From Pseudoxanthomonas sp. F37 (GTDB taxonomy: Bacteria > Pseudomonadota > Gammaproteobacteria > Xanthomonadales > Xanthomonadaceae), in assembly GCF_022965755.1 (NCBI RefSeq), contig NZ_CP095187.1, positions 3,757,001-3,821,000 of the forward strand: a stretch of 64,000 nucleotides of DNA, written 5' to 3'. The notes below the pieces were generated by a model. That model saw nothing but the letters and a program-made list of their open reading frames with translations, was not told where the DNA came from and made no database searches. Shown here piece by piece: positions 25,781 through 29,858 of this stretch. The first letter of the stretch is position 1. Each line of letters begins with the position of its first letter. A program made the position numbers and the translations under genes.

Positions 25781-25881
25781 CGAACGCCGGCCGCCCCGTC
25801 TCACTTTTCCATTACGATCCGACCTCCCCCCTCCTCCCCGGGCCGCCCCCACCCGGCACATCCGCTGCACCGAGATGCCCG

Positions 25882-26265
25882 ATGACATTGGAGATTGAGG
25901 TCTACCCACCGGTGAACGGCAACCAGTACGTGATGCTGGGCGGCCGGCTGGACACGCTGAGCCACGCGCAGCTGGACCAGGCGCTGGCCCCGATGCTGGC
26001 CGCGCGCCCGCAGGCGCTGGTGCTGGACCTGGCGCACCTGGACTACATCAGCAGCGCCGGCGTGCGCAGCATCCTGAAGGCACGCAAGGCGCTGGCCCCG
26101 CACGAGGGGCGGCTGCTGGTGGTGCACCCGCAGGAACAGATCCGCAAGGTGATCGAGATCGTGCAGGCCGTGCCGATGGACGAGATCTTCGAGTCCACCG
26201 CCGACGCCGACGCCTACCTCGACGCGCTGCAGCGGCGCATTCTCGATGGCGAGGAAGACCAGTGA
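25882..26265 (+). CDS. STAS-domain anti-sigma factor antagonist (second copy)
   Basis: 127 residues. A paralogue of the preceding gene: LGGRLDTLSHAQLDQALAPM, ALVLDLAHLDYISSAGVR, then HEGRLLVVHPQEQIRKVIE, ending with a similar acidic tail. The conserved serine in DYISSAG is kept. It is separated from the first STAS gene by about 100 bp that include a T-rich run, so it may have its own promoter. Two antagonists for one kinase could bind different anti-sigma partners or integrate two signals (inference). Confidence 0.92.
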   Translation: MTLEIEVYPPVNGNQYVMLGGRLDTLSHAQLDQALAPMLAARPQALVLDLAHLDYISSAGVRSILKARKALAPHEGRLLVVHPQEQIRKVIEIVQAVPMDEIFESTADADAYLDALQRRILDGEEDQ

Positions 26266-26271
26266 CGTTAG

Positions 26272-26940
26272 CTAGCCGGCAAGTCCAAAGCCCCGGGTGA
26301 AGTACCACAGCATGATGATGGCGTTGACGACACCATGAACTACGGCTCTCTGTGCCGAGCTGAACCCCTTCGCCAGTGCGAACCAGCACAGGACCATTGA
26401 CACGGCGAATGCCCAGATCATCGCGCCTGTGTGAACCAGTGCAAAAACTGCGGAAACAAACAGCGACGCCCACCAACGACCGATAATCCCCACTGCCCCC
26501 TGCAGCAGGAGATGGCGCACCACTTTTTCTTCGAAGATCGGCGCCGTCAGCACGGCACTGGAACATCCCACTACAAGTGCGATCACACTTGCATTCGCAA
26601 TATCGAAGAACTGGGTGTTGCCCCAAGCGAATATTGCCACCCAAGCAAGCGCCAAGGCAGCGCCGATGGCACATAGAAGCAGGAAAAGCCTGCTGCTCCA
26701 TCGAACGATATTGACCTCGGGATAGAGCTTCATCAACACCAGCGCCACCAGTAGCTCCGCGAGGGGCTTTGCACCCACTGCACCGACGTGGCTCATCAGT
26801 GCAACCATGGCACCGCACAACAGGGAGCCGAGGCTTCCGGCAAGGAATAGCCCAGCGGATTCCGATCTCGAAAGCACTGTCATGTTGCTTCGCACGGGAC
26901 CGAAGAAGGAGGAGAGCGGAGCCACCCCTTTCCGACGCAC
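26272..26940 (-). CDS. CPBP-family intramembrane protease (possible bacteriocin immunity/processing)
   Basis: Up to 222 residues with about six transmembrane segments. The CPBP (CAAX/Abi) motifs are complete: EEKVVR (E137, E138, R142), FALVH (F166, H170) and HGVVN (H202, N206). The GTG at 26940 directly follows the stop of the upstream peptide gene; a later ATG at 26883 (MTVLSRSES) is an alternative start and neither has a strong Shine-Dalgarno. CPBP proteins act as intramembrane endopeptidases, and several are immunity proteins beside bacteriocin genes. Lower GC than the neighbours suggests transfer. The cassette role is inferred. Confidence 0.78.
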   Translation of the reverse strand: MRRKGVAPLSSFFGPVRSNMTVLSRSESAGLFLAGSLGSLLCGAMVALMSHVGAVGAKPLAELLVALVLMKLYPEVNIVRWSSRLFLLLCAIGAALALAWVAIFAWGNTQFFDIANASVIALVVGCSSAVLTAPIFEEKVVRHLLLQGAVGIIGRWWASLFVSAVFALVHTGAMIWAFAVSMVLCWFALAKGFSSAQRAVVHGVVNAIIMLWYFTRGFGLAG

Positions 26941-27135
26941 TCAGAAGACGCGCGTGATGATGCCAGGGACAGTGATCGGGCTCACTGCCAGAAAGGACCA
27001 AACAGCCTTTGCTGCGTATCCCCAGTCAGCTCCGGTACCCGTGCATGAAACCGACGTATCCGTACCGACGGACACGGTACAGGTCATCTCTCCCCCTTCG
27101 ACGCAATCCAGCTCTTTCATTTTCAGCGTACGCAT
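26941..27135 (-). CDS. Double-glycine-leader peptide, putative bacteriocin precursor
   Basis: 64 residues from ATG 27135 with AAGGAG seven bases upstream, an excellent ribosome binding site. Residues 1-15 (MRTLKMKELDCVEGG) match the class II bacteriocin/microcin leader pattern: hydrophobic and acidic positions, EL, then V-x-G-G as the predicted C39-peptidase cleavage site. The 49-residue mature part has Cys19 and Cys31 in a Gly/Ser/Thr-rich segment, then Trp38-Gly39-Tyr40 and a hydrophobic stretch (residues 41-60). The CPBP gene starts right after its stop. No ABC exporter is nearby. I infer a secreted antimicrobial or signalling peptide. Confidence 0.68.
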   Translation of the reverse strand: MRTLKMKELDCVEGGEMTCTVSVGTDTSVSCTGTGADWGYAAKAVWSFLAVSPITVPGIITRVF

Positions 27136-27313
27136 CTTGAATCTCCTTCAGTGTAGTCGCGCCCACTCCATTGCGAGGCGCGCCCCGAATCTATCGGGCG
27201 TTCAAACGTATCAGTCCACCTCTCGGAAAACCATGCGCGCGAGATGGCATTCCGTGACAATTCGTGTCATCTCACAACAAGTACCCTTTGCAATTCAGTC
27301 TCTTGGAATTCCC

Positions 27314-27353
27314 TGTCAGCAGGACTGTACAAGTTCAGTCAGAATTGCTGACA
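27314..27353. other. Nested inverted repeat in the peptide upstream region
   Basis: TGTCAGCA (27314-27321) and TGCTGACA (27346-27353) are perfect inverted arms, and ACTG/CAGT inside them extend the pairing. The structure lies in the gene-free, low-GC stretch 27136-27514, which otherwise holds a small TGACA-N5-TGTCA palindrome (27255-27269) and a REP-like pair. It could be an operator or part of an untranslated RNA; nothing more can be said. Confidence 0.4.
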
Positions 27354-27414
27354 CTCGCCCGAGATCAACGCAGCAGCCGCGGATGCCGGGAGCCAAGGAA
27401 GAAACCTGGTTGTC

Positions 27415-27497
27415 GTAGGAATGACGTGAGTCGCGACGGCATGAATCAGGCGTCCTGGCCTCTGATGGCAGACGGTCGCGACTCATGTCGCTCCTGC
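27415..27497. repeat. REP-like inverted pair (GTCGCGAC family)
   Basis: Two oppositely oriented copies of a short palindromic unit containing GTCGCGAC and GACGT/CATGTCGCTCC flank a 37-bp spacer (left copy 27415-27437, right copy 27475-27497). The same unit pair occurs at 41318-41388. Such GTCGC-rich intergenic repeats are abundant in Xanthomonadaceae. Confidence 0.65.
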
Positions 27498-27514
27498 AGC
27501 ATCCGCAATAAAAA

Positions 27515-27534
27515 ACGCCCCGCATGCGGGGCGT
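27515..27534 (-). terminator. Rho-independent terminator of maeB
   Basis: A perfect 20-bp palindrome, ACGCCCCGCATGCGGGGCGT, followed on the minus strand by a run of T (AAAAAA at 27510-27515 on the plus strand). It lies 27 bp beyond the maeB stop codon. A shorter T-run on the other side makes it weakly bidirectional. Confidence 0.9.
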
Positions 27535-27560
27535 TTTCCGTTCCGGCGATTCGCCGTGCC

Positions 27561-29858
27561 TCAACCCGGCCCGCTGCGCTCGGCCTCGCGTTGCTGGCGG
27601 ATCTGCGCGTCCACGGCGGCGATGGCGGTCATGTTGATCACCCGCCGCGGCGTGGCGCTGGTGGTCAGGATGTGTACCGGCTTGGAGATGCCCATCAGGA
27701 TGGGGCCGATGGCCACGCCATCGGTGACCACGCGCACCATGTTGTAGGCGATGTTGGCCGCATCCAGGTTGGGCAGCACGAACAGGTTCGCGCGCCCGCT
27801 CAGCGTGCTGCCCGGCATGATCCGGTTGCGCAGCACTTCGTCCCAGGCAGTGTCGCCCTGCATCTCGCCGTCCACGTTGAGGTCCGGCTTGCGCTTGAGC
27901 AGCAGCTCGCGCACCTTGCGCATCTTCAGCGAGCCCGGGGTTTCGTGGCTGCCGAAGTTGGAGTGCGACAGCAGCGCGATGCGCGGCTCGATGCCGAACA
28001 GCTTCAGCCGGTAGGCCGCCTGCAGCGTGGCCTCGGCGATCTGCTCGGCGGTGGGGTCGTCCTGCACGTGCGTGTCCAGGAAGAAGTACGCGCCCTGGTT
28101 GTTGATCACGCCGGTCATGGCCGAGGTGGACTGCACGCCCGGATCCAGCGGAATCATGCTGCGCACATAACCCAGCTTCTTGTGGAAGCGCCCGACGATG
28201 CCGGTGATCAGCGCATCCGCCTCGCCGCGCGCCACCATCACCGAGGCGATCAGCGTGGGCCGCGAACGCATCAGGTTCTTCGCCGCCGCCGGGGTCACGC
28301 CGCGGCGCGCGGTCAGCGCGTGGTAGTGCTGCCAGTAGTCGTTGAAGCGCGGATCGTCGTTCTGGTTGGTCAGCTCGAAATCCACGCCCGCGCGCATGCG
28401 CAGGCCCAGGCGCTGGATGCGCGCGTCGATCACTTCGGGGCGGCCGATCAGGATGGGGAAGGCCAGGCCTTCGTCGATCACCGTCTGCACGGCGCGCAGC
28501 ACGGTCTCTTCCTCGCCTTCGGCGTACACCACGCGCTTGATGTCGGCGCGGGCGCGGTCGTACACCGGCTTCATCATCAGGCTGGTGCGGTAGACGAACT
28601 GGCCCAGCTTCTCGCGGTAGGCCCACATGTCGGCGATCGGCCGCAGGGCCACGCCGGAATCCATGGCGGCCTGCGCCACCGCGGCGGCCACTTCCACCAG
28701 CAGGCGCGGATCGAACGGGCGCGGGATGAGGTATTCGGGGCCGAAGCAGGGCACGTCGTCGCCGTAGGCGCTGCCCAGGTCGGACGCTTCGCGGCGCGCC
28801 AGGTTGGCGATGGCATGCACGCAGGCCACCTTCATCGCCTCGTTGATGACGGTGGCGCCCACGTCCAGCGCGCCGCGGAAGATGTACGGGAAGCAGAGCG
28901 CGTTGTTGACCTGGTTCGGGTAGTCGCTGCGGCCGGTGCCGATGATGGCGTCCGGGCGCACGGCCTTGGCGTCGGCCGGCGAGATCTCGGGGTTGGGGTT
29001 GGCCAGCGCCAGGATGACGGGCTTGTCCGCCATGGTGGCGACCATCTCCGGCTTCAGGATGCCGCCGGCCGACAGGCCCAGGAAGATGTCCGCGCCGTCG
29101 ACGATCTCGGCCAGCGAACGCTTGCCGGTGTCGCGCGCGTAGCGCGCCTTGTCCGGGTCCAGGTTCGGGCGACCGGTGTAGATCACGCCGTCGCGGTCGA
29201 AGGCCAGGATGTTCTCCGGTTTCAGGCCCAGCGCCACCAGCATGTCCAGGCAGGCGATGCCCGCCGCACCGGCGCCGCTGGTGGCCAGCTTCACCTCGCC
29301 GATCTTCTTGCCCACCACCTCCAGCGCATTGACCACCGCCGCGCCGACGATGATCGCGGTGCCGTGCTGGTCGTCGTGGAAGACCGGGATGTTCATCCGC
29401 TCGCGCAGCTTGCGCTCGACGATGAAGCACTCCGGCGCCTTGATGTCCTCCAGGTTGATGCCACCGAAGGTGGGTTCGAGCGAGGCGATGATGTCGACCA
29501 GCTTGTCCGGGTCGGTCTCGTCGATCTCGATGTCGAACACGTCGATGCCGGCGAACTTCTGGAACAGCACGCCCTTGCCTTCCATCACCGGCTTGCCGGC
29601 CAGCGGGCCGATGTTGCCCAGGCCCAGCACCGCGGTGCCGTTGGTGACCACGGCCACCAGGTTGCCGCGCGCGGTCAGCTCGCTGGCACTGGTGGGATTG
29701 TCGACGATCGCCTCGCAGGCATAGGCCACGCCCGGCGAATAGGCCAGCGCCAGGTCGCGCTGGGTCAGCATCGGCTTGGTCGGCGCGACCTTGATCTTGC
29801 CGGGCGGGGATTGCCGGTGGTATTCCAGCGCGGCCTGCTTGAAATCGTCGTTCGTCAT
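27561..29858 (-). CDS. maeB: NADP-dependent malic enzyme (MaeB)
   Basis: Oxidative decarboxylation of malate to pyruvate, supplying NADPH, in the cytoplasm. The protein is 765 residues with the MaeB hybrid architecture. The N-terminal malic enzyme part has [47 protein letters not shown] and [11 protein letters not shown]. The C-terminal phosphotransacetylase-like domain starts near residue 430 ([35 protein letters not shown]). The latter is regulatory (acetyl-CoA binding in homologues), not an active Pta. It is next to dctA, consistent with growth on C4-dicarboxylates. Confidence 0.96.

Follow-up and report, generated by a model that had tools for sequence, protein, structure and literature searches.

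Conserved pairing of a double-glycine-leader peptide with a CPBP membrane protein in Xanthomonadaceae

A small gene for a peptide with a double-glycine (GG) leader and the gene for a CPBP (Abi/Rce1-like) membrane protein that follows it make up a cassette which, as sequence comparison confirms, is conserved and co-inherited among relatives. The pair lies in the window, by which we mean the whole 64-kb stretch of DNA that was analysed. The original prediction had described it as a bacteriocin-like or signalling peptide with an immunity or processing partner, and of that proposal the conserved pair and, in some relatives, its linkage to a C39 exporter are now in place. We lean towards a reading in which the GG-leader peptide resembles a class II microcin and CPBP is its immunity protein. 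The copy in the window has probably been orphaned, and may be kept for immunity or be in decay. The features discussed are:

25882–26265, forward strand: left flank, presumably a STAS-domain (anti-sigma antagonist-like) gene, 127 aa (ORF)
26266–27372, no strand: low-GC insert of ~1.1 kb between the STAS gene and maeB, right edge approximate
26272–26883, reverse strand: CPBP (Abi/Rce1-like) membrane protein, 203 aa from the probable ATG at 26883 (PF02517; alignments A4 and A6; structure model)
26884–26940, reverse strand: intercistronic gap of 57 nt, with a strong stem-loop in most relatives and none in the window copy
26941–27135, reverse strand: GG-leader precursor gene, 64 aa (ORF; homologues; dN < dS)
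27091–27135, reverse strand: double-glycine leader, MRTLKMKELDCVEGG (leader model A5; published consensus)
27143–27148, reverse strand: Shine-Dalgarno sequence AAGGAG, 7 nt before the ATG (sequence)
27561–29858, reverse strand: right flank, which we take to be an NADP malic enzyme (maeB)-like gene, 765 aa (ORF)

The peptide gene encodes a GG-leader precursor

The 64-residue gene and its good ribosome-binding site are as originally predicted, and so is the layout of the precursor: a GG leader of 15 residues and a predicted mature part of 49 residues, with cysteines at precursor positions 19 and 31 and a hydrophobic C-terminal half. Summed over its residues, the predicted mature peptide has a mass of about 5,055 Da, or 2 Da less if a disulfide forms. 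AAGGAG-type sites also lie upstream of most of the peptide homologues listed. Apart from a T for E at position 3, the leader fits the published consensus for Gram-negative GG leaders, M[RK]ELx3E[IL]x2[IV]xG[GA] (PMC9200625), and its length falls within the ~15–20 residues expected of the GG/GA leaders of class II microcins. A profile search for the leader, proposed with the original prediction, was carried out on the window's own genome with leader model A5, which matched the window leader at E 7.7e-6 and itself contains that leader.

The precursors of relatives are 31–58% identical to that of the window over their whole length. For seven of nine homologue pairs, which are all those with a computable dS, dN was lower than dS (window against L049, over 64 codons: dS 1.80, dN 0.34); the remaining two had a saturated dS. 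In other words, the ORF evolves as a coding sequence, which speaks against the concern, raised with the original prediction, that it might not be translated; an over-called or chance ORF is ruled out by the homologues, the pairing with CPBP and dN < dS. Both cysteines are missing in L056 and in three S. maltophilia peptides, and one is missing in L027, so a disulfide is no family trait. Among Pfam and NCBIfam no model covers the peptide, and matches are weak at most: Bacteriocin_IIc (PF10439) reached 17.5 bits on the window peptide, below its cut-off of 27.1, and matched one of the 12 members of alignment A3 at E ≤ 0.1. The predicted structure of the peptide (mean pLDDT 59.0) was too weak for use.

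The peptide core and CPBP occur together in relatives

To count the peptide across the family, profiles were run against 345 genomes, with at most 17 or 18 candidates per genome scored, which makes all of the following counts lower bounds. A 15-row profile found the peptide core in at least 14 genomes from five genera at E < 1e-9, and in at least 16 at E ≤ 0.001; a three-row profile found it in at least 20 at E ≤ 0.01. Because the 15-row profile takes in nearly all of the 14 strong genomes, its E-values are circular, and the three-row profile is the fair test. This smaller profile recovered ten further genomes of the 14, at E-values from 1.9e-30 to 2.2e-3, eight of them at E ≤ 2.2e-10.

The presence of the pair in other Xanthomonadaceae, which the original prediction had left to be looked for, was borne out, with both leader and pair kept in relatives. 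A CPBP protein of the same family is encoded within the 1.5-kb flank, downstream of the peptide, in 13 of the 14 strong loci (the exception, G152, has the peptide without CPBP) and beside none of ten weaker or partial peptide matches (Fisher p 5.6e-6, relatedness ignored, with peptide and CPBP profiles that were built from most of those loci). This count leaves out the short locus L043, and takes L039 and L042 once, as they coincide with L131 and L132. CPBP therefore tracks the peptide core, not GG leaders in general. CPBP was absent from 29 control loci taken around the STAS genes of genus members. A three-row CPBP profile detected the protein in 11 of 13 wide loci (L029, one of the 13, is a partial match), with nine further loci at E ≤ 8.5e-20.

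A scan of named genomes gave nine CPBP relatives: four in Pseudoxanthomonas, one each in Lysobacter penaei and Stenotrophomonas sp. VV52, and three in S. maltophilia records; the one from strain VV52 (L069) has no recognisable peptide beside it. Searched across the class, the peptide matched in three of 369 genomes, of which two matches were convincing and already known, while the third was weak, its ORF being unlike the peptide. Within the window's own genus, peptide and CPBP occur together in two of 38 genomes; four more have remote CPBP matches alone, and one more (G006) has a partial peptide match.

The CPBP protein and the stem-loop before it

As originally predicted, the protein carries all three CPBP motifs (EExxxR, FxxxH and HxxxN), and in a scan that covered the window protein alone it passed the cut-off of PF02517 (Rce1-like; 31.7 bits against 22.4). 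The motif residues E118, E119, R123, H151, H183 and N187 are invariant in all ten rows of alignment A6, made up of the window and nine named records. In alignment A4, ten of 12 rows have all three motifs, L027 and L051 being the exceptions; the CPBP protein of G178 (L051) lacks the motifs, and that of G012 has a K in place of the second Glu. The AlphaFold2 model has seven helices (mean pLDDT 89.2), and its nearest solved fold is SpdC (6u0o), presumably an Abi-type protein, at probability 1.00 and TM 0.54 with a weak E of 0.029; it was the only structure match listed near probability 1. A sequence search of the PDB with A4 gave no matches. Processing of the MrtJ type was ruled out, as the NF033192 model scored 21.7 bits on the window CPBP, under its cut-off of 75.

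CPBP does follow the peptide, but the view that it begins directly after the peptide stop did not hold up as well. The ORF can also be read from a GTG at 26940, which touches that stop; the ATG at 26883 is probably the true start, because in several relatives the peptide stop and an ATG are separated by a stem-loop. The first 60 nt past the peptide stop contain a perfect stem of at least 8 bp in ten of 15 loci, compared to 26 of 196 control gene ends from the same sources (p 1e-5), with stem sequences that vary from locus to locus. The folding z, computed for the peptide loci, was −2 or lower in 11 of the 15. Five loci failed the perfect-stem test, namely the window, L051, L053, L073 and L074; among these, L051 (z −4.1) and L074 (z −3.5) fold strongly despite having no perfect stem, L053 and L073 reach −1.2 and −0.6, and the window copy, with a stem of 5 bp at most and a z of +0.3, has no stem-loop.

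Exporters beside the cassette and elsewhere in relatives

Genes around the loci were called by codon-position GC, with no trained gene finder, and names given without a search were assigned by eye. An exporter adjoins the pair in four of 12 wide contexts: a C39-ABC exporter comes after CPBP in L028 and L049 (C39, HlyD) and in L056 (C39 called), and in L057 CPBP is followed by HlyD and then C39. In the S. maltophilia loci L072–L074, peptide, CPBP, C39 and an HlyD-like ORF (HlyD by eye) stand consecutively. As the pair in these loci continues into a C39-ABC exporter, mostly with HlyD, the full form of the cassette is, judged by gene order, a four-gene operon of peptide, CPBP, C39-ABC exporter and HlyD adaptor.

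In five further carriers, all from the Pseudoxanthomonas group, the exporter lies away from the cassette, in separate islands with HlyD and C39, and the cassette may therefore use an exporter in trans. Seven of nine exporter islands (the four of the window's own genus included) have GG-leader ORFs between HlyD and C39. An exporter-type C39 gene (E ≤ 1e-29, with a frame of at least 700 aa) was found in 12 of 13 carriers compared to five of 15 own-genus non-carriers examined (p 0.002), a comparison confounded by genus, since 11 of the 13 carriers come from other genera and all 15 non-carriers (15 of 36) from the own genus. Of the two own-genus carriers, one has such a gene. The non-carriers G107, G120 and G200, from other genera, all have one, and adding them brings the non-carriers to eight of 18.

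Several observations on GG-leader genes were made along the way. The islands L114, L116, L117 and L119–L122, from the own genus and the Pseudoxanthomonas group, combine HlyD and a C39 exporter with diverse GG-leader ORFs, at least one per island. Near the cassette and maeB, L053 and L055 (Pseudoxanthomonas group) have three further GG-leader ORFs each, and in L055 (G162) the window-type peptide itself is without an in-frame leader. The window's own genome has a second GG-leader ORF (L113 6944–7114, reverse strand; G000:C1:154943–155113), which reads MKELNASEVQMVSGG and then 41 aa; it is followed by a hairpin-like sequence. A LysM-like gene ~0.7 kb away carries two ADFSGV..VDSTA repeats, and the same motif is present in a GG peptide of G120 (L134).

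The only candidate exporter of the window genome is damaged

A PF03412 search of the whole genome, as suggested with the original prediction, gave two C39 matches, none of them in the 64-kb window, so the earlier statement that the window holds no exporter stands. One of the two is a C39-ABC gene and the sole exporter-type C39 gene of the genome, at G000:C1:2723904, ~1.06 Mb from the cassette. In one open frame it is 82% identical to the L057 exporter over 682 aa; its homology starts at residue 7 of L057, its own first codons being lost, and a GTG behind AAGGA could start an exporter of near-normal length. Its HlyD partner is lost, with two relics just upstream (corresponding to residues 19–42 and 266–305 of the L057 ORF), and the other HlyD-like proteins of the genome are remote (best E 3.9e-8, 31%). 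The second C39 gene, L026, was ruled out as an exporter: it encodes a free peptidase, which we take to be FapD-like, near a Gly/Asn-rich protein. By eye, this long Gly/Asn-rich protein looks amyloid-like.

A Gln precedes the catalytic Cys in nine of 12 exporters listed, and L025, L119 and L122 have Pro, Ser and Ala there. In the crystal of a related protease, according to the available text of the source, this Gln lies off the oxyanion (PMC6363468). Loss of the Gln, considered as proof that the far exporter is dead, was on these grounds reduced to a hint. No exporter-type C39 was found in G012, the other carrier of the genus, which is a draft of about 70 contigs. The suggestion that an exporter is supplied from elsewhere is weakened by the lost adaptor gene and first codons and by G012, where none was found. 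As the far exporter is damaged and its HlyD lost, the window peptide may not be exported. The absence of a local exporter, the damage to the only candidate and the missing stem-loop are the reasons why we regard the window copy as probably an orphan.

The cassette lies in a low-GC insert between the STAS gene and maeB

As the original prediction had noted for the genes, GC is lower than in the surroundings, at 56.5% for the insert compared to 68.6% and 69.2% in the flanking stretches. On the right, the point at which homology is regained varies with the relative, from 27369 to 27415. The STAS gene has a match in 30 of the 38 genus genomes. A gene with a maeB-like N-terminal sequence pattern adjoins the cassette in seven Pseudoxanthomonas-group loci, and in L050 a STAS gene flanks the cassette on the opposite side, oriented relative to it as in the window. 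G001, which by its STAS protein (98%) is the closest genus relative, has, at L082, just 16 bp between the stretches that match window positions 25801–26258 and 27415–28200 (96% and 93% identity), and the cassette is also absent at L083, L085, L086, L088, L089 and L092. In G012, the cassette and the STAS gene are on different contigs. Either the cassette was inserted at a site that these genomes share, or it is an old resident that most of the genus has lost. A phage or plasmid origin was rejected: neither 50,697 phage nor 72,556 plasmid records contained a match for the peptide, and the plasmid records contained none for CPBP. A REP-like palindrome (gtcgcgac) lies at 27415–27505, at the right edge of the insert, and similar palindromes are seen at the corresponding junction in genus relatives without the cassette.

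Function of the cassette

If the pair is microcin-like, the C39 domain of the exporter would cut after the GG motif, and the mature peptide (~49 aa, with one possible disulfide and a hydrophobic C-terminal part) would be pumped out through HlyD and a TolC-type channel, to act on the membrane of related bacteria. CPBP, seated in the inner membrane, would shield the producer, and the stem-loop would keep the peptide mRNA above the mRNA of the downstream genes. Immunity is somewhat favoured as the role of CPBP, and processing is the less likely one, because of its position after the peptide, its pairing with the core and not with the leader, and the loss of motifs in one member. As a tentative extension, which we hold to be rather doubtful, the family could be a distinct kind of peptide weapon among Gram-negative bacteria, with a glutamic-type intramembrane protease as its immunity factor; it would spread as a two-gene satellite cassette, borrow the exporter of separate multi-peptide GG islands and be able to persist as an immunity-only passenger after exporter loss.

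For the window copy itself, we see about an even chance that it is a non-functional relic, its peptide unexported and both genes drifting after loss of the exporter and adaptor; this is compatible with a microcin-like role for the family. The lack of HlyD and of first codons at the sole exporter-type C39 gene points that way, as do the absence of such a gene from G012, the missing stem-loop, and the presence of the cassette in so few genomes of the genus (two of 38). Against drift, neither ORF is broken, and the leader, the ribosome-binding site and every CPBP motif are in place; the far exporter is, in one open frame, 82% identical to that of L057 over 682 aa and has a possible GTG start behind AAGGA for near-normal length; and its deviating first residues are no peculiarity, as the Gln found in nine of the 12 exporters listed is also replaced in L119 and L122.

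We consider it unlikely that the peptide is a pheromone or other signal which CPBP helps to process, export or trim. The precedent for this is SilX of Streptococcus anginosus, a CAAX protease beside a bacteriocin locus, which in the available text is reported to be needed for production and not for immunity (PMC9298176). The conservation of the CPBP motif residues in all ten rows of A6 would suit such a role, and so would the regulator-like neighbours seen by eye, namely a two-component-like gene pair in L051 and L052, at ~2 kb from the peptide, and, in L027, a LysR-type gene adjoining it. Nevertheless, no regulator is common to the loci as called, and precursors no more than 31–58% identical to that of the window suit bacteriocins better than a conserved signal. 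C39 exporters, moreover, remove GG leaders on their own, which leaves no need for a second protease. That two unrelated genes happen to be adjacent and the peptide ORF is over-called can be dismissed, since the weak library matches of the peptide are set against a conserved pairing, a leader, a ribosome-binding site and dN < dS.

Comparison with known systems

The microcin-like reading finds a parallel in Gram-positive bacteria, where Kjos is said to have described, in 2010, CPBP/Abi immunity proteins of class II bacteriocins with the CPBP gene beside the GG-peptide gene; here, in contrast, the host is Gram-negative and the exporter comes with HlyD. According to the available text of PMC9298176, some CAAX proteases give immunity, and SilX, like the protein described here, is a CAAX/CPBP protein in a GG-bacteriocin region, whereas its reported role is signal processing. 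In RaxX–RaxAB of Xanthomonas, from the same bacterial family, the GG leader is likewise removed by a C39 exporter; unlike our peptide, RaxX is tyrosine-sulfated with RaxST, and the available accounts mention no CPBP. Among the literature matches listed, with most subscription literature outside the scope, none dealt with a CPBP partner in GG-peptide operons of this bacterial family. The cassette thus adds a peptide family without a Pfam or NCBIfam model, connects a CPBP protein with GG-leader export operons of Gram-negative hosts, and makes testable both the protection of Gram-negative GG-peptide producers by CPBP and the need for its catalytic residues.

The mcbABCI genes of Moraxella catarrhalis also form a four-gene cluster of two secretion genes, a GG peptide and an immunity gene; the immunity protein there, McbI, is 74 aa long, and nothing in the accessible part of the source calls it a CPBP protein. 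Class II microcins of the MccV/colicin V type consist, according to the available texts, of precursor, immunity protein, PCAT, MFP and TolC (PMC13174018, PMC11494933). A GG peptide with C39 exporter, adaptor and membrane partner is of this known kind. The system described here differs in that its partner is a CPBP protein of ~200 aa, its peptide is without a Pfam or NCBIfam model and the window copy is unlinked to an exporter; it shares with the class II microcins the GG leader and, in some relatives, a C39 exporter, an HlyD-type adaptor and a membrane partner whose genes accompany that of the peptide.
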